Shown here in pieces: positions 1,176 to 7,591 of a stretch of 7,591 bases of DNA. The stretch covers positions 1 through 7,591 of the forward strand of contig JAKPQT010000193.1 of assembly GCA_029555885.1 (NCBI GenBank), given 5' to 3'. This stretch comes from Chloroflexota bacterium. GTDB lineage: Bacteria > Chloroflexota > Anaerolineae > CG2-30-64-16. The notes under the pieces are model-generated. The model searched no databases and had not been told where the DNA came from. It worked only from the letters and a program-made list of their open reading frames with translations. A program made the position numbers and the translations under genes. The first letter of the stretch is position 1. Every line of letters begins with the position of its first letter.

Positions 1176-1835
1176 ATGATTACGAAAACGATCGAAGACT
1201 ATCTCAAGGTCATCTTCCAGGTCGAAGAAGCGCAAGGCACAGTCAGCACGACCGACCTGGCTGCGGAGCTCGGCGTCGCGCCGGCCTCGGTGACGGGCAT
1301 GCTCAAGAAGCTCGCCGCGCACGACCTCGTCACCTACACCCCCTACCAGGGCGTCACGCTGACCGCGCATGGCCGCGCCATCGCGCTGCGCGTGGTGCGC
1401 TATCACCGGCTGGCCGAGCAATACCTGGCCGAGGTGTTGGGGATGCCGTGGGACGAGGTGCATGCAGAGGCCGAGGAACTTGAGCACGCGCTGAGCGAAC
1501 AGGTCGTCGGGCGCATCGACGCCGCGCTGGGTCGGCCAACGACGGACCCACATGGTGAACCGATTCCGACGGAAGATGGCCGGATGCCCGATTTGGATGA
1601 TGTTCCGCTGGACTCGCTGGCCGTGGGTGATAGGGCTGTGGTCGCGCGTGTCAGCAGCCGTGAGGCCAGCTTCCTGCGCTACCTGGGCAGCATGGGCATC
1701 TACCCCGGCGCGCGCGTGCAGGTCATCGCGGTCGCGCCCTTCGACGGCCCGCTGACCGCGCAGGTCGGCGAGCGGCAGTATGCTATCGGACGCACGGCTG
1801 CTGCGCAGGTGTTCGTACGGGCGGAAAAGACGTGA
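1176..1835 (+). CDS. mntR: MntR/DtxR-family metal-dependent transcriptional repressor with C-terminal FeoA/SH3-like domain
   Basis: The 219-residue product has the full three-domain DtxR layout. An N-terminal winged helix-turn-helix spans about 1-70, with recognition-helix region APASVTGMLKKL and wing ending LTAHGR. A helical dimerisation and metal-binding domain spans about 71-135, and an SH3-like FeoA domain about 145-216 (LGSMGIYPGARVQVI). Likely metal ligands by family alignment are D8, H77, H96, E100, E103 and H104. The residue matching DtxR Cys102 is Glu (E100) and the one matching DtxR Met10 is Asp (D8); both substitutions are the manganese-type pattern of Bacillus MntR, though E11 of that protein is Lys here. 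The start ATG has GAGG 4 nt upstream. It heads the transport operon behind its own putative operator, so autoregulation and metal-dependent repression of the transporter are expected. Manganese as effector is inferred. Confidence 0.92.
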   Translation: MITKTIEDYLKVIFQVEEAQGTVSTTDLAAELGVAPASVTGMLKKLAAHDLVTYTPYQGVTLTAHGRAIALRVVRYHRLAEQYLAEVLGMPWDEVHAEAEELEHALSEQVVGRIDAALGRPTTDPHGEPIPTEDGRMPDLDDVPLDSLAVGDRAVVARVSSREASFLRYLGSMGIYPGARVQVIAVAPFDGPLTAQVGERQYAIGRTAAAQVFVRAEKT

Positions 1836-2812
1836 TGGAAGTTGAGCGAGAGATGAGACGAGAGTTTAGACGGAACGTGCATCTGACGATTTTGATCCTC
1901 CTGCTGGCCTCCCTCCTGGCGGGCTGTGCGACGCCCATTGCCGCGCAGCGGCCCGAGGACCTTGCGGCCCGCAAGCTGCGCATCGTCGCGACGACCGGCA
2001 TGGTGGCGGACGCGGTCCGCAATGTCGCGGGCGAGCGTGCGGAGGTGACCGCGCTGATGGGGCCGGGCGTGGATCCGCACTTGTATAAGGCCAGCGAAGG
2101 GGACGTGCTGCGGCTGGGCACTGCGGACGTCGTGTTCTACAGCGGTCTACACCTGGAGGCCAAGCTGGGCGAGGTGCTGGAGCGGATGGGCGATCGCGTC
2201 CGAGCACGCGCTGTGACGGACGGAATGGATCGCAGTCGCCTGAGCAAGCCGGCCGCATTCGAAGGCCAGTATGACCCGCACGTCTGGTTCGACGTGGCGC
2301 TCTGGGCGCAGACGATCGATGTCATCCGCGATACGCTGATCGAGATGGACCCCGGCAGCGCCGAGCTGTACCGCGCGAACGCGGACGCATATCGTCAGCA
2401 GTTGCGCGAGCTGGATGACTACGTTCGCCAGCAGGCCGCGCGCATCCCCGCGGCCCAGCGCGTCCTCATCACCGCCCATGACGCCTTCAACTACTTCGGT
2501 CGCGCTTACGGGTTCGAGGTGCGCGGCCTGCAGGGCATCAGTACCGCGACCGAGGCCGGCACGGGGGATGTGCAGGGGCTGGCCCGCTTCATCGCTGAGC
2601 GGCAAATCCGGGCGCTCTTCATCGAATCGTCGGTGCCGGTGCGCAACGTGGAGGCCGTGCAGGCCGCCGTGCGCGCCCGTGGGTTCGAGGTGCGCATCGG
2701 CGGGGAGCTGTTTTCCGATGCGATGGGGAGCGCGGGCACGGTCGAGGGGACGTATGTCGGCATGGTGCGGCACAACATTGATACGATTGTGAGTGCGTTG
2801 CTGGGGGAATGA
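1835..2812 (+). CDS. troA: TroA/ZnuA/MntA-type metal-binding lipoprotein of an ABC importer
   Basis: This is the extracytoplasmic receptor that captures Mn2+/Zn2+ (possibly Fe2+) and hands it to the permease. A basic start and hydrophobic stretch end in the lipobox LLAGC (Cys31 from the ATG at 1835), predicting lipid anchoring. The cluster A-I fold follows. The four expected metal ligands are H82 (VDPHLYKAS), H149 (YDPHVWFD), H215 (ITAHDAFNYF) and D295 (ELFSDAMG). His at the third position is the TroA/ZnuA state; the manganese-specific PsaA/MntC group has Glu there. There is no His-rich loop, which argues against a classical ZnuA. Motifs GLQGISTATEAGT and SAGTVEGTYVGMVRHNIDTIV are strongly TroA-like. 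The ATG at 1835 overlaps the repressor stop by one base (TGATG), suggesting translational coupling. GTG 1832 and ATG 1853 are alternative in-frame starts. Confidence 0.93.
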   Translation: MEVEREMRREFRRNVHLTILILLLASLLAGCATPIAAQRPEDLAARKLRIVATTGMVADAVRNVAGERAEVTALMGPGVDPHLYKASEGDVLRLGTADVVFYSGLHLEAKLGEVLERMGDRVRARAVTDGMDRSRLSKPAAFEGQYDPHVWFDVALWAQTIDVIRDTLIEMDPGSAELYRANADAYRQQLRELDDYVRQQAARIPAAQRVLITAHDAFNYFGRAYGFEVRGLQGISTATEAGTGDVQGLARFIAERQIRALFIESSVPVRNVEAVQAAVRARGFEVRIGGELFSDAMGSAGTVEGTYVGMVRHNIDTIVSALLGE

Positions 2813-2813
2813 C

Positions 2814-2841
2814 CAGTAACGAGAAATCAGTAACGAGTAAT
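2814..2841 (+). repeat. Two tandem copies of a 14-bp repeat between receptor and ATPase genes
   Basis: CAGTAACGAGAAAT (2814-2827) is followed directly by CAGTAACGAGTAAT (2828-2841), identical at 13 of 14 positions. It begins two bases after the receptor stop and fills most of the short gap before the ATPase gene. No function is visible. Confidence 0.7.
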
Positions 2842-2861
2842 TGTCGTGAAGGTGAGGGTTC

Positions 2862-3641
2862 ATGGAACCGAAACTCAGAACTATAGCGGCTGCGGCCGCG
2901 ATCGAAGTCACCGATCTGACGGTGGCCTATAACGAGAAACCGGTGTTATGGGATGTGGACCTGGATGTACCGTCCGGTGTGCTGATGGCGATCGTGGGGC
3001 CGAACGGCGCCGGCAAGTCCACGCTGATCAAGGCCATCCTGGGCCTCGTGCCAGCCGCGGCCGGTCAGGTGCGTATCTGCGGTAAGCCCTTTGCCGAGCA
3101 GCGCCATCTCGTGGGCTACGTGCCGCAGCGCGGCAGCGTGGACTGGGACTTCCCGACGAACGCGGCCGACGTGGTGATGATGGGGCTGTACCGGCGGCTG
3201 GGGTGGGTCCGGCGTCCGGGCAAGGCCGAGCGCGAGCTCGCGCTGGAAGGGCTGCGCAAGGTCGGCATGGAGGACTTCGCCCGCCGCCAGATCAGCCAGC
3301 TCTCCGGCGGCCAACAGCAGCGGGTCTTCCTGGCCCGCGCACTGGTGCAGGATGCGCAGATTTACTTCATGGACGAACCCTTTGCCGGCGTGGATGCCAT
3401 CACCGAGCGCGCCATCATCGCGCTGCTGCGTGACCTGCGCGCGGCGGGCAAGACCGTCGTCGTTGTGCATCACGACCTCCAGACGGTGCCGGAGTATTTC
3501 GACTGGGTGACGCTGCTGAACGTCCGCCGGATTGCTAGCGGGCTGGTCGAGGAGGCGTTCACTGAGGATAATCTGCGCCGGGCCTACGGCGGGCGGATTG
3601 CGTTCCTGGGGAAGAGCCATGAACCTGCTATCGCTGCTTAA
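2862..3641 (+). CDS. troB: Metal ABC transporter ATP-binding protein (TroB/MntB/ZnuC type)
   Basis: The 259-residue cytoplasmic ATPase powers the two permeases encoded downstream. All motifs are intact: Walker [10 protein letters not shown] (46-54), Q-loop YVPQR (Q89), signature LSGGQQQR (147-154), Walker B IYFMDEP (167-173), D-loop region AGVD, and the switch histidine in VVHHD (H204). The stretch [19 protein letters not shown] after the Q-loop is typical of the Mn/Zn/Fe chelate-type importer ATPases (TroB, MntB, SitB). The start ATG has AAGGTG 7 nt upstream. The first 13 residues, ending in an Ala run, precede the usual family start near [10 protein letters not shown], so translation could begin slightly differently, but no better in-frame start is seen. 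It overlaps the next gene by 23 bp. Confidence 0.96.
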
Positions 3642-4737
3642 TGACCTGTTCTTCGATTACACCCTGCGCACCGTTGCGCTGGGCGCGGCCGTGCTGGGAC
3701 TGGTCAGCGGCGTGCTGGGCGTTTTCGCCGTCCTGCGCAGGCAGAGCCTCCTGGGGGATGCCATCTCCCATGCGGCGCTCCCCGGCGTGGCGCTGGCCTT
3801 CCTGCTGACCGGCTCCAAGGAGGCTGCCGTGCTGGTCATCGGTGCGATTGCCGCGGGCTGGCTGGGCACGCTCCTGGTCATGCAGGTGACGCAGCAGACG
3901 CGCATCAAGTCGGATGCGGCGCTCGGCATCGTGCTGGCTGTCTTCTTCGGATTCGGCCTGCTCCTGCTCACCTATATTCAACGTCTGCCGGATGCCGCGA
4001 AGGCCGGGCTCGACAAGTTCCTGTTCGGCCAGGCCGCGACGCTGCTCGGCCGCGATGTCATCACGATGGCGCTGCTCGGCGGCGCGGCGGTCGCCGCGGT
4101 CGCCCTCTTCTGGAAAGAGTTCAAGCTGTTGAGCTTCGACCCGGAGTTCGCAGGCAGCAACGGCTATCCCGTCCGGCGGCTCGATATCCTGCTGACGACG
4201 CTTACTGTCATCGCTATCGTCGTGGGCCTCCAGACGGTCGGCGTGGTGCTGATGAGCGCGATGCTCGTTGCCCCGGCCTCGGCCGCGCGCCAGTGGACCG
4301 AACGGCTCAACGTCATGGTGCTGCTGTCGGGCGCGTTCGGCGCACTCGTCGGCCTGCTGGGCGCGCTCACGAGCAGCCTCGTCCCGCGCCTGCCCACGGG
4401 ACCGACCATCGTGCTCTACATGAGCGCCGTCGTGGTCATCTCCCTGCTATTTGCGCCGCAGCGCGGTCTCGTGGCGCGCAGCCGCCAGCGCGTGCGGCAG
4501 CGGTGGCAGTTCGCGCAGGAGGCGCTGGCCGTCCATCTGCTCCAGCACGAGGGGACTGCCGCGGCCCCCGATGAATCCAGCCTCGCCCACATGGGCGACC
4601 ACATGAGCTGGGAAGCCGGGTTTGCCGCCGAAGTCGTCCAGCGCGCGGTGGATGATGGCCTGGTGGAGCGCACGGCAGACGAGTTACAGTTGACGGCAGA
4701 AGGCCGCGCGGCAGCACAGCGCGCCGTCGTGCGATAA
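3619..4737 (+). CDS. troC: Metal ABC transporter permease, ABC-3 family (TroC type), with C-terminal winged-helix-like extension
   Basis: One of two membrane subunits forming the metal channel. The ABC-3 hallmark [14 protein letters not shown] is at residues 43-56. About eight hydrophobic segments run from residue 15 to 280, and the permease core ends at [12 protein letters not shown] (277-287). [17 protein letters not shown] (166-182) is the conserved cytoplasmic stretch likely to contact the ATPase. Most ABC-3 permeases are about 280-300 residues; this one has 372. The extra approximately 85 residues are soluble and end in [17 protein letters not shown], closely resembling the LTAHGRAIALRVV segment of the regulator encoded at 1176-1835. 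The ATG at 3619 is chosen because GGGGA lies 6 nt upstream and the family N-terminus fits; an earlier in-frame ATG at 3532 would add 29 residues read out of the ATPase gene. Confidence 0.93.
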
Positions 4738-4780
4738 CGATAGCAGGCGTTCCAGAAGCAACTGGCTTGCTGAAGATTGG

Positions 4781-4846
4781 AGTCGAGGCGTCAGCCGGTT
4801 TGGTTGGCTACGCTCGCACACACCCTAACCGGCTAAAGCCTCGACT
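4781..4846. repeat. Long inverted repeat (20-bp arms) between the two permease genes
   Basis: The arm at 4781-4800 (AGTCGAGGC GTC AGCCGGTT) is complementary to the arm at 4827-4846 (AACCGGCT AAA GCCTCGACT) at 18 of 20 positions, with a 26-nt loop. It sits in the only sizeable gap inside the operon (4738-4898). No T run follows, so it is not a standard intrinsic terminator. It resembles dispersed REP-type palindromes found between bacterial genes; as RNA it could stabilise the upstream mRNA or attenuate transcription into the second permease. Confidence 0.7.
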
Positions 4847-4898
4847 TCGGCTATATCTGGTATTCCTGATCGCCATAGTGCCAATGTTGAGGTAGGCT

Positions 4899-6014
4899 AT
4901 GTTACAGGCGCAGTTTGAGATTATCCTGATTGCATCGGTCGTTGCCGCCAGTTGCGGGTTGGTCGGGACGTTCCTGGTCCTGCGGCGGATGGCGCTGATG
5001 AGCGACGCCATCAGCCACGCGATTCTCTTCGGCATCGTCGTGATGTTCTTCGTCGTCGAAAACATTACGTCGCCCTGGTTGGTCATTGCCGCGGCCGCGA
5101 CCGGCCTGCTGACGGTCGTCCTGGTCGAACTCCTGACCCGCACACAGCTGGTCAAGGAGGATGCGGCCATCGGACTGGTGTTTCCGCTGCTGTTCTCGCT
5201 CGGTGTCATCCTCATCAGCCGCTACGCCGCGAACATCCACCTCGATGTGGATGCCGTGCTGCTGGGTGAGCTGGCCTTCACCCCGTTCGACCGGCTGGTC
5301 GTCGGCGGACTGGACATCGGGCCGCGTGCGCTGTGGCTGGCGGTGGGCGTCGGCCTGCTGAATCTCGCCTTCATCCTGCTGTTCTACAAGGAGCTGAAAC
5401 TGGCGACGTTCGACGCGGGGCTGGCGATGGCGCTGGGCTTCTCGCCTGCCATCATTCACTATGCGCTGATGAGCCTGGCATCGCTGACGGCCGTCAGCTC
5501 GTTCGAGGCGGTCGGGAGCGTGTTGGTGGTGGCCTTGATGATCGCGCCGCCTGCGGCCGCATACCTGTTGACCGACCGGCTGCCCGTTATGCTGGCGCTT
5601 TCTGCCGCCATCGGCGTGCTGTCCGCGGTAACCGGTTTCTATCTGGCGCGGCTGCTGGACGGCTCCATTGCGGGCAGCATCGCGACGATGACCGGCGTGT
5701 TCTTCCTGCTGGTCCTGCTCCTTGCGCCCCAGCGGGGGCTGGTGGGGCGCTGGTCGCGCGCCCGCCGCCAGCGTTACCAGTTCGCCGGAGAGATGCTGCT
5801 GGTGCATCTGTCGCAGCACGAACATGAGCCGGCAGCGAGCGCGGAGGCGACGCTGGAGCATATGGCGCGGCACATGCACTGGCAGCCAGCCTTCGGCGCA
5901 CAGGTGGCAGACCTCCTCCTGCGGCGCGGATTGGTCACACGGCAGAACGGCGGTACGCGCCTCGCGTTGACGGAGACCGGCCGTGCGCTCGCCCGCGATG
6001 TGATGGTGCGGTGA
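4899..6014 (+). CDS. troD: Metal ABC transporter permease, ABC-3 family (TroD type), with C-terminal winged-helix-like extension
   Basis: The second membrane subunit, 371 residues, is homologous to the preceding permease, so the channel is probably a heterodimer. The hallmark MALMSDAISHAILFG is at residues 31-45. Multiple hydrophobic segments run from about 8 to 275, and the core ends at LLLAPQRGLVGRW (273-285). YKELKLATFDAGLAMALGF (163-181) is the likely ATPase-coupling region. As in the first permease, about 85 extra soluble residues follow (RRQRYQFAGEMLLVHLSQHE onward), ending in LALTETGRALARDVMVR, which fits a DtxR-like winged helix. Treponema TroD is also longer than typical ABC-3 permeases, as I recall. 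The ATG has TGAGG 6 nt upstream. It is separated from the first permease by 161 bp holding an inverted repeat, unlike the tight spacing in the rest of the operon. No terminator is visible after its stop. Confidence 0.93.
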   Translation: MLQAQFEIILIASVVAASCGLVGTFLVLRRMALMSDAISHAILFGIVVMFFVVENITSPWLVIAAAATGLLTVVLVELLTRTQLVKEDAAIGLVFPLLFSLGVILISRYAANIHLDVDAVLLGELAFTPFDRLVVGGLDIGPRALWLAVGVGLLNLAFILLFYKELKLATFDAGLAMALGFSPAIIHYALMSLASLTAVSSFEAVGSVLVVALMIAPPAAAYLLTDRLPVMLALSAAIGVLSAVTGFYLARLLDGSIAGSIATMTGVFFLLVLLLAPQRGLVGRWSRARRQRYQFAGEMLLVHLSQHEHEPAASAEATLEHMARHMHWQPAFGAQVADLLLRRGLVTRQNGGTRLALTETGRALARDVMVR

Positions 6015-6037
6015 GGGCTGTGTATGACGCAAATCAT

Positions 6038-6066
6038 TTGACAGCACGCCGGGGGTGTGGTATCTT
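6038..6066 (+). promoter_or_regulatory. Sigma-70-type promoter driving the B12 riboswitch transcript
   Basis: A perfect -35 TTGACA (6038-6043) is separated by 17 bp from TATCTT (6061-6066), which also has an upstream TG (6058-6059) as in extended -10 promoters. Transcription would start near 6073, shortly before the riboswitch aptamer. It begins 24 bp after the permease stop, so the B12 unit has its own promoter. A second TTGACA at 6075-6080 lacks a matching -10. Confidence 0.75.
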
Positions 6067-6092
6067 CATCGCTGTTGACAATCAAAAACATG

Positions 6093-6195
6093 GCGGAAAC
6101 ACAAGGGGTAAGCCGGTGCGAAGCCGGCGCTGTCCCGCAACTGTGAACGAGTGACTCGACGCGAGTCACCCGTAAGTCAGAAAACCCGGTTCCGC
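6093..6195 (+). ncRNA. Cobalamin (B12) riboswitch aptamer
   Basis: The B12-box sequence GCTGTCCCGCAACTGT (6129-6144) is essentially consensus. It is preceded by the P5 hairpin GCCGG (6112-6116) / CCGGC (6124-6128) with loop TGCGAAG. A variable hairpin follows, GTGACTCG (6151-6158) / CGAGTCAC (6162-6169), then the conserved GTAAGTCAG (6172-6180). A closing P1 helix is GCGGAA (6093-6098) / TTCCGC (6190-6195). The aptamer is compact, lacking the larger peripheral helices of long AdoCbl forms, so it may belong to the Cbl-II-like group; that subclass call is inferred. It senses a cobalamin in the nascent RNA and controls the downstream secreted protein. Confidence 0.95.
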
Positions 6196-6208
6196 TTTGT
6201 TCTCAACG

Positions 6209-6219
6209 ACCTTCGAGGT
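6209..6219 (+). promoter_or_regulatory. Regulatory P13 hairpin of the riboswitch, loop complementary to L5
   Basis: ACC-TTCGA-GGT forms a small hairpin 13 nt after the aptamer. Its CTTCG (6211-6215) is the exact complement of CGAAG (6119-6123) in loop L5. An L5-L13 kissing interaction is the known ligand-stabilised switch of cobalamin riboswitches. Confidence 0.65.
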
Positions 6220-6220
6220 A

Positions 6221-6283
6221 AAGGGAGTGGGAATCGGTCGGGACGTGCCCTTAAGGGCGCGTTTCGTCCAGTCCGCTCCCCTT
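6221..6283 (+). promoter_or_regulatory. Predicted antiterminator pairing of the riboswitch
   Basis: AAGGGAGTGG (6221-6230) can pair with CCGCTCCCCTT (6273-6283), giving ten base pairs including one G-U with a single bulged C at 6278. The right strand overlaps the left arm of the terminator (6278-6285), so the two structures exclude each other. The left strand directly follows P13. The enclosed segment folds separately, with GGACG (6241-6245) / CGTCC (6265-6269) around the palindrome GCCCTTAAGGGC. Confidence 0.6.
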
Positions 6284-6316
6284 GCTGTCCAACAGGCAAG
6301 GGGTTTTCTTTTGTTT
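6278..6316 (+). terminator. Intrinsic terminator, riboswitch expression platform
   Basis: CCCCTTGC (6278-6285) pairs with GCAAGGGG (6296-6303); the stem can continue by three pairs past a one-base bulge. It is followed by TTTTCTTTTGTTT (6304-6316). It lies between the B12 aptamer and the coding region, so B12 binding most likely favours termination. Confidence 0.88.
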
Positions 6317-6323
6317 GAGGAAT

Positions 6324-6346
6324 GCCCCTGCACGCAGGGGCGTTTT
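6324..6346 (+). promoter_or_regulatory. Second hairpin overlapping the ribosome binding site of the B12-controlled gene
   Basis: GCCCCTG (6324-6330) and CAGGGGC (6335-6341) form a perfect 7-bp stem with loop CACG, followed by GTTTT. The right arm contains the only reasonable ribosome binding sequence (AGGGG, 6336-6340) for the ATG at 6349. It may be a weak second terminator or a structure that hides the ribosome binding site. Confidence 0.55.
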
Positions 6347-6348
6347 GC

Positions 6349-7395
6349 ATGTTTGTACCGGCACATAGCCGACGTATAGCGGCCGTTGGCATCGTGGTTT
6401 TGGGCCTGATGTTGAATCTGGCCGGCGCCGTAAGGGCCGCGCCCATCACCGCGACTGATCCGGTGCAAGAAGTCATCGACCGCGCGGTGGCCTGGCTCAA
6501 GACCCAGCAGTTGCCCGACGGCGGCTTCGGCTACAAGGGTAAGAGCAATGCCGCCATGACTGCGGACGTGGTCTATGCCCTCGCCCTTGCAGGCGAGCAG
6601 CCGGATGGACCGGCGTGGACCACGGCAGGCGGTCGCAGTGCGCTCGATGCGCTGGCGGAGCTGGCCCCGGCCTACGTCGGCACTGATGCGGGCCAGGCGG
6701 GCAAAGTCGCACGGGCCGTCAGCCTGGCGGGTGGCGACCCGCGGGCCTTCGGCGGACTGGACCTGATCGCTATCATCGAGGCGGCCTACGATCCGGCGAC
6801 GGGCCGCTACCATCCGAGCTTCGCCTTTCGTCACACACTGGCCGTGGAGGCGCTGCACCGTGCGGGGGTCGAAGTGCCGCCTGCGGCCATCATGGCCCTG
6901 CGGCTGGCGCAACTGCCGGACGGCGGCTGGTTCTGGAGCTTCAACCAGGACGCCGGTGCAGAGCGGAGCGACGTGGACACTACGGGCCGCGTGCTGCTGC
7001 TGCTCGGCGGGTTGCTGGATGTGCGGGATCCGTGCGCATACAGACTGGCGGGCGCGTACCTATCCGGCATGCAACTCCCGGGCGGGTGGAACGACGGCCA
7101 AACCGAGGGTGCGCCCGCAAACGCCAATTCGACCGCCCTGGCGCTTGCAGGGCTGAACGCTGCAGGCATTGACCCGCAGGGCGCCCTGTATCAGAAGGGC
7201 GGCCAGGACGTACGCACGACGCTGTTGACCTTTCAGGAGCCCTCCGGTGCGTTCGTCTATACCCTGGACCCCACTGTGGGACAGGAAGTGCGGGTGATGG
7301 CAACGGCGGAGGCGCTCGTCGCACTGGTTCAGCCGCTCAACGCCGGTAAGGGGACGTGCAAACCGGTCCCTTATTTCCCGATGATCCTGCGCTAG
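6349..7395 (+). CDS. Secreted prenyltransferase/terpene-cyclase-fold repeat protein under B12 riboswitch control; probable cobalamin-binding protein
   Basis: The 348-residue product starts with an N-terminal signal (RR at 8-9, hydrophobic 10-27, likely cleavage after VRA, residue 30). The mature chain has four QW-like repeats: QQLPDGGFGYKG (53-64), AQLPDGGWFWSF (187-198), GMQLPGGWNDG (240-250) and TFQEPSGAFVY (294-304). Helical segments such as TADVVYALALAG and STALALAGLNAAG follow them. This pattern indicates an alpha/alpha toroid as in terpene cyclases, protein prenyltransferases and the N-terminal domain of intrinsic factor/transcobalamin. No cyclase DXDD acid motif is evident. Export plus a B12 riboswitch makes extracytoplasmic cobalamin binding the best hypothesis, not proven. 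Two cysteines (229, 337) could form a disulfide. The tail YFPMILR resembles C-termini I associate with secreted Chloroflexota proteins. ATG 6349 is preferred; in-frame ATG 6322 has GAGG only one base away and lies in the leader hairpin. Confidence 0.8.
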   Translation: MFVPAHSRRIAAVGIVVLGLMLNLAGAVRAAPITATDPVQEVIDRAVAWLKTQQLPDGGFGYKGKSNAAMTADVVYALALAGEQPDGPAWTTAGGRSALDALAELAPAYVGTDAGQAGKVARAVSLAGGDPRAFGGLDLIAIIEAAYDPATGRYHPSFAFRHTLAVEALHRAGVEVPPAAIMALRLAQLPDGGWFWSFNQDAGAERSDVDTTGRVLLLLGGLLDVRDPCAYRLAGAYLSGMQLPGGWNDGQTEGAPANANSTALALAGLNAAGIDPQGALYQKGGQDVRTTLLTFQEPSGAFVYTLDPTVGQEVRVMATAEALVALVQPLNAGKGTCKPVPYFPMILR

Positions 7396-7404
7396 GATGC
7401 ATCA

Positions 7405-7478
7405 CTATCCGAGAGTAGCATAGCCCCTTGTGGGTGCTTTGACGGGCACAAGCCCCTAGGCTACGCGGAAGCGGATAG
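7405..7478 (+). repeat. 74-nt imperfect hairpin between the B12-controlled gene and the next gene
   Basis: Nested complementary blocks: CTATCCG (7405-7411) with CGGATAG (7472-7478); GTAGCATAG (7415-7423) with CTAGGCTAC (7456-7464), one mismatch; TTGTG (7428-7432) with CACAA (7447-7451). They are separated by small internal loops and a 14-nt apical loop. There is no T tract, so it is not a plain terminator. It could be a REP-type element or a structured leader or processing site between two co-transcribed genes. Confidence 0.6.
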
Positions 7479-7509
7479 AGGTTCTCATTTCAATTTGAGG
7501 AGGAAGATC

Positions 7510-7591
7510 GTGTCTCGTCGTCTCAGCCTTGTCGCCCTGGTTGTCCTGGTTCTTGTGGCAGTGGTAGCCCCTGCCCAGGCCCAGGACGCCG
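7510..7591 (+). CDS. N-terminus of an exported protein (only the signal peptide is in the window)
   Basis: A GTG start at 7510 follows an excellent ribosome binding site, GAGGAGG (7497-7503), 6 nt upstream. The 27 visible residues are a textbook signal peptide: SRR at 2-4, hydrophobic 5-20 and cleavage site AQA (22-24) before QDA. The rest is outside the window, so the function cannot be read. It follows the B12-controlled gene by 114 bp on the same strand with no terminator between, so it is probably in the same B12-regulated transcript. It may be a partner of the preceding secreted protein, such as a second cobalamin-binding domain or transporter component; this is a guess from position. 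Both proteins have SRR before the hydrophobic stretch, but neither fully matches the Tat consensus. Confidence 0.75.
   Translation, partial: MSRRLSLVALVVLVLVAVVAPAQAQDA

Follow-up and report, generated by a model that had tools for sequence, protein, structure and literature searches.

We analysed a 7,591-nucleotide stretch of DNA from a Chloroflexota bacterium (assembly GCA_029555885.1, contig JAKPQT010000193.1; the whole stretch is called the window below), the 3′ part of which carries a cobalamin riboswitch, a gene for a secreted α/α toroid protein and the first codons of a further gene, all on the plus strand. These elements very probably form the front end of a B12 (corrinoid) scavenging operon, in which a carrier split into two proteins, the toroid (α component) and the product of the next gene (β component), feeds an energy-coupling factor (ECF) importer. 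Corrinoid binding by the pair is predicted.

The leader is preceded by a σ70-type promoter-like site, TTGACA-17-TATCTT (6038–6066; a match to the consensus only, at 10 of 12 positions), and one such site was found in the leader of the toroid gene where shuffled sequences would give 0.1. A covariance-model match then places a cobalamin aptamer with its B12 box at 6080–6207, which covers positions 1–189 of RF00174 and scores 49.2 bits (E = 3.3e-10), well over the gathering threshold of 31.5. The centroid fold of 6200–6352 (z = −5.3 against shuffles) predicts an expression platform between aptamer and terminator (6208–6277), with a hairpin at 6224–6279 that adjoins the terminator stem and shares two bases with it. 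That stem belongs to an intrinsic terminator-like hairpin (6278–6303) found by a terminator scan and followed by TTTTCTTTT. A second hairpin with a T-rich end (6319–6346), present in both the scan and the fold, lies immediately 5′ of the start codon as revised below, and could stop transcription or hide the ribosome site. The two terminator-like hairpins compare with 0.6 expected in shuffled sequences; the leader is predicted to switch in a ligand-dependent manner.

The toroid gene, recognised as an open reading frame (ORF) with family and fold matches, spans 6349–7395. We moved its start from 6322, where the listed ORF (6322–7395) begins, to the methionine codon at 6349, because four related proteins (P0001, P0002, P0003 and P0006) start there and the hairpin at 6319–6346 ends just before it. 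P0001 is listed at 100% identity to the window’s toroid, yet one substitution is visible. The N-terminus is hydrophobic and appears to be of the export type, and the translation contains four QW-like units (Q62-Q63-LPDGGFG, Q197-LPDGGWFW, Q251-LPGGW and Q305-EPSGAFVY), of which Q62, Q63, Q197, W203 and G309 are invariant across 32 aligned toroids, the window’s included. The initial annotation of this DNA had described a consensus-like B12 aptamer, an exported protein and four QW-like repeats, and on all three it agrees with what we find. A fold search with the predicted model confirmed the toroid fold, the best folds listed being squalene-hopene cyclases. Pfam returns only cyclase and prenyltransferase matches, all below cut-offs, NCBIfam returns a partial match to SCO2321 (NF053823; 67.4 bits against a curated cut-off of 300), and a sequence search of the PDB gives a best E of 0.14. 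Many toroids of the family end in a Tyr-Leu/Phe-Pro-hydrophobic tail (7378–7392 in the window). This pattern occurs in 8 of the 663 predicted ORFs of the related loci described below, 7 of the 8 being toroids, and the tail is possibly a sorting signal.

A GAGGAGG ribosome-binding-like sequence (7497–7503), read from the sequence, stands 6 nt before the GTG codon of the next gene (7510–7591), of which the window holds 27 residues, the signal peptide only, before its edge cuts the frame. Of the 27 residues, 26 match the β protein P0259, with the GTG taken as Met, and 25 match the β protein P0249. Because of these N-terminal matches, it is nearly certain that this gene encodes a β component, the domain of which lies outside the window. 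The longest contig is 2131 bases for both P0249 and P0002, a toroid 89% identical to that of the window, and the two are therefore probably encoded on the same contig. The intergenic RNA (7393–7512) folds no better than shuffled sequences (z = −0.66).

The predicted model of a relative’s β protein has a transcobalamin-type fold, with a helix at residues 57–63 followed by strands at 68–73 and 76–82, as set against the definition in the accessible part of Burroughs et al. 2007 (PMC1796856). Four cysteines are invariant in the β family, and hhalign of β against six DUF4430 segments gave 70% over 68 columns. Pfam reports nothing on β besides PEP-CTERM and chance-level matches; PF28005.1, a precomputed domain on β homologues, is not reported by the Pfam copy used here. 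SCO2322_fam (NF040672) matches 53 of 56 β proteins at E up to 0.1, with 28 bits for member 1 against a cut-off of 85, SCO2322 exceeds its curated cut-off in none of seven genomes, and a PDB sequence search with the β profile gives a best E of 1.5. Many β rows of the alignment (A2) are trimmed behind the domain, and C-terminal anchors are outside the count.

By protein only, we gathered 54 related toroid loci, which represent 53 genomes, as L002 and L006 belong to the same one. Eight came from a first search and 25 from a second, all as returned, and 21 (L058–L078) were picked by hand from the second search’s list with a preference for long contigs; L009–L013, which repeat L001–L005, were left out. 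In an Rfam scan, 49 of the 54 loci had a cobalamin riboswitch upstream of the toroid and on its strand (46 RF00174 and 3 RF01482, members of the same clan), and the median distance from riboswitch to matched toroid domain is 173 nt (50 values, window included). Two loci counted as lacking the riboswitch, L006 and L037, end at a contig edge. L017 shows no nearby match that exceeds the cut-off, and one of 27.7 bits, below it, stands directly before its toroid; in L042, a longer stretch of L017, a riboswitch lies at 3588–3764, upstream of a cob cluster.

The riboswitch content of whole genomes was counted in 20 genomes chosen by hand among those with a locus. At least 31 cobalamin riboswitches over the cut-off were found in all of them together, and the single match of 12 genomes is, in every one of the 12, that before the toroid; as 76 candidates were scored per genome, the counts are lower bounds. 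Because the riboswitch stands within 561 nt upstream in 48 of the 54 loci, compared with only these 31 matches across 20 genomes, its pairing with the toroid goes beyond chance. The initial annotation had allowed that homologues might lack a conserved upstream riboswitch, which is thus not the case. As a separate observation, one genome carries a second, weaker toroid (G003:C261, 13304–16760; toroid at 13304–14170, minus strand) with a riboswitch about 0.9 kb upstream (15036–15224, minus strand); a divergent riboswitch and a PF01497 gene lie next to them.

Toroid and β genes occur together in 50 of the 54 loci. The operon survey, for which profiles were built from the loci, covered 48 loci, 39 of them with at least 6.5 kb downstream; in these 39, β was found in 37, EcfT in 35, EcfA in 32, the S-component in 31 and all four in 28. 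Pfam and NCBIfam confirmed EcfT (PF02361, CbiQ) in three members, EcfA in one and the S-component (PF12822) in two, and a PDB sequence search with the S-component gave a best E of 0.36. The window’s own operon presumably continues as in its relatives, with the ECF genes beyond the window. In L042, the riboswitch is followed by a PF02277 gene (cobT-type, with a short frame), cobS and cobU (4615–7183), which immediately precede the toroid and share its strand, and a cobalamin adenosyltransferase gene lies downstream in L059 and L076. The carrier genes vary in architecture: seven loci (L020, L022, L023, L032, L033, L070 and L071) have two or three tandem toroid matches per frame with one or two β genes detected downstream, and L069 (4179–5549) carries a β–toroid fusion in one frame, in the reverse of the order in intrinsic factor, followed by a second β gene.

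The need of the hosts for B12 was gauged in the same 20 genomes. B12-binding domains (PF02310) are present in all of the 20 genomes and CbiC (PF02570) was found in one; CbiC is a single enzyme standing for the ring pathway, and single absences are soft in incomplete genomes. CobS was found in 9 of the 20 and a BtuF-type PF01497 protein in 8, and in G003, G023, G058 and G064 the PF01497 gene lies just behind another cobalamin riboswitch, as in a classical system.

We propose the following model for the locus. When B12 is plentiful, the leader RNA would bind coenzyme B12 and transcription would stop at the terminator without reaching the genes, whereas B12 shortage would allow the operon to be transcribed. 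The toroid and the β component would then be exported, and a C-terminal segment of the membrane or PEP-CTERM type would anchor β to the cell surface. The two proteins would clamp a corrinoid between the barrel rim and the β domain, much like the paired domains within the single chain of transcobalamin or intrinsic factor, and hand it over to the importer (S-component, EcfT and EcfA) encoded downstream. A role in B12 capture is supported by (i) the conserved riboswitch, (ii) the partner with a transcobalamin-type fold, (iii) the ECF operon in relatives, (iv) the cob genes near some of the loci, and (v) the lack of CbiC in 19 of 20 genomes. The initial annotation had proposed the toroid as an intrinsic-factor-like candidate B12 binder, of which the capture role stands, whereas the toroid now appears as only half of the unit, with the β half encoded by the next gene.

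Several points weigh against this model. Only a minority of the toroid matches, which were spread over 177 of the 396 genomes searched, was inspected, chiefly among the stronger ones, and the genomes are mostly metagenome-assembled, so that absences are soft. L007 and L064 have a toroid with no detected riboswitch, and the riboswitch of L058 is 2.2 kb away. β was not found at L037, L058, L064 and L066; none of β, EcfT, EcfA and the S-component was found at L064, and L008, L070 and L078 have β with no ECF genes found. The β fold comes from a relative’s predicted model, the window itself holding 27 residues, and PF14478 matches none of 56 β proteins. PF01122, the intrinsic factor/transcobalamin family to which the initial annotation had looked for a match, matches none of 32 toroids at E up to 10 with HMMER filters on. 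A B12 carrier is not among the 50 fold matches listed for the toroid model, which proves nothing either way. The comparison with carrier-type toroids made below uses one protein, and corrinoid binding is a prediction.

The alternative that survives best, an improbable one in our judgement, is that the corrinoid is bound by β alone, with the toroid serving as a scaffold or docking ring that has no contact with the ligand. The isolated β domain of human transcobalamin has been crystallised with cyanocobalamin (5np4, by its title), and the fold matches listed for the toroid model show no specific likeness to a carrier α domain. Against this, α and β keep company in nearly all of the loci and are fused in L069, and the match of the toroid family to L088, a toroid–DUF4430 fusion, covers the toroid of that protein in one piece (90 bits, model positions 8–299). 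Furthermore, conservation extends to polar residues close to where helices begin in the toroid model (D217 in 45 of 48 sequences, N269 in 40 and T271 in 47), and these residues may face the ligand.

It is very unlikely that the operon instead imports cobalt for B12 synthesis, with secreted proteins that bind cobalt ions. EcfT does match PF02361, CbiQ, a ‘cobalt transport protein’, B12 riboswitches also govern cobalt uptake, and the four invariant cysteines of β also count in its favour. The S-component, however, matches PF12822, which is no cobalt family, in the two members tested, the 19 of 20 genomes without CbiC would gain little from cobalt for building the ring, and β has the fold of a B12 carrier in the relative’s model. 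We rejected a cobalt ECF identity on the S-component family and the missing CbiC.

The toroid was also compared with cyclases. The window’s protein has DVDT in place of the DxDD motif; the last Asp is present in none of 48 family members and the middle one, D219, is Asn in 11 of them, whereas all eight hopene cyclases fetched from the phylum have DxDD. The family HMM breaks into 5–8 repeat-sized pieces on each hopene cyclase (best 30.3 bits, sums 45–68 bits), in contrast to its one-piece match to L088. Since the toroid of L088, a carrier-type protein found through its DUF4430 domain, carries DVDD, the motif is no proof of catalysis and decides nothing alone. L083–L088 represent classical DUF4430 proteins in other Chloroflexota; PF14478 was found in 4 of 301 genomes of the phylum and in none of 120 of the class. 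No cobalamin riboswitch was found at these six loci (stretches of about 3.2 kb), which sets the present toroid family apart. A terpene cyclase identity was rejected because DxDD is absent and the HMM match to cyclases is fragmentary; of the two findings that the initial annotation had named as speaking for a cyclase, a cyclase is indeed the closest listed fold, but the catalytic motif is missing. That the toroid is a secreted terpene or squalene cyclase-like or other toroid enzyme placed behind a B12 switch by chance is the least credible reading, as the window’s protein stays below Pfam cut-offs and the β gene, the ECF genes and the riboswitch would be left unexplained.

Upstream of the leader, the window opens with a divergent ftsH-like gene on the minus strand (3–959, from the ORF list), cut by the window start. 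A metal-uptake cluster follows (1176–6014), with a DtxR/MntR-type regulator carrying a FeoA domain, a ZnuA-type binding protein, an ABC ATPase and two ABC-3 permeases. An inverted repeat just before the DtxR-type gene (1135–1158; ATAATTTAGG-TAAG-CCTAAATAAT, 90% complementary) is likely a metal-regulator operator. Both permeases (3532–4737 and 4899–6014) have an extra, winged-helix-like C-terminal stretch beyond the ABC-3 match, which in the second gives a weak match to WH_AprA (E = 0.029, residues 300–368). To our knowledge, such a stretch is unusual for ABC-3 permeases. Genes of the same permease cluster precede the toroid of L039. A plasmid BLAST gave no match.

A bacterial toroid-type B12 capture system, the novelty of which the initial annotation had stressed, was already predicted in 2007. 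The accessible part of PMC1796856 describes bacterial SLBB domains of the transcobalamin-like kind, some of them stand-alone and others joined to toroids, whose operons also contain CbiO and CbiQ and whose hosts usually lack key B12 synthesis enzymes, and predicts B12 scavenging. The present loci share with these systems, as described there, a secreted toroid, a transcobalamin-type β-grasp domain, a CbiO-like ATPase and a CbiQ-like membrane protein, and the two SLBB proteins that some of those operons carry parallel the one or two β genes here. Toroid and SLBB domain co-occur as in that prediction (in the window, as judged by the N-terminus only), and the CbiO and CbiQ genes are present as EcfA and EcfT in most relatives. 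The 2007 clade is listed for low-GC Gram-positives and planctomycetes, more rarely for euryarchaea, and fusion is the common architecture described, whereas here the hosts are Chloroflexota and the genes mostly separate; a near-constant riboswitch, a PF12822 S-component in most loci and a β component that escapes PF14478 likewise differ from that description, and its main text holds neither ‘riboswitch’ nor ‘Chloroflex’. Cobalamin regulons of Chloroflexi and a riboswitch-regulated B12 transporter are covered by Sun et al. 2013 (PMC3766115), in the main text of which ‘toroid’, ‘squalene’ and ‘transcobalamin’ are absent. We found no experimental work on a split toroid/β system in open-licence PMC.

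Vertebrate intrinsic factor, transcobalamin and haptocorrin join PF01122 and a β domain in one chain; here two proteins share the task, PF01122 is unmatched, β appears to be anchored, and binding is predicted. SCO2321 and SCO2322 are NCBIfam families named without a function, and the matches here are partial and, where shown, below cut-off. Squalene-hopene cyclases have the toroid fold and QW-like repeats in common with the present family, which differs in lacking DxDD, being secreted and lying in another operon. ECF-CbrT is likewise an ECF-type B12 importer, in which, according to the accessible part of PMC5997447, the S-component is itself the binding protein; in the present loci, the ECF genes come after those for two extracellular candidate binders. 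For the family as a whole, we see the case as evenly balanced that these loci encode an ECF B12 importer with a two-piece extracellular carrier, of one to three toroid domains and one or two β components, that clamps its ligand at the surface and hands it to the S-component. The split form may resemble what became the fused intrinsic factor and transcobalamin of animals.

These findings suggest a function for secreted proteins at present named hypothetical or terpene cyclase, and provide a testable bacterial counterpart of the human B12 carriers in which the halves of the clamp are on separate polypeptides. They also suggest a route to B12 for B12-using Chloroflexota that often have neither BtuF-type proteins nor CbiC, and raise the question of whether extracellular binding proteins serve some ECF transporters.
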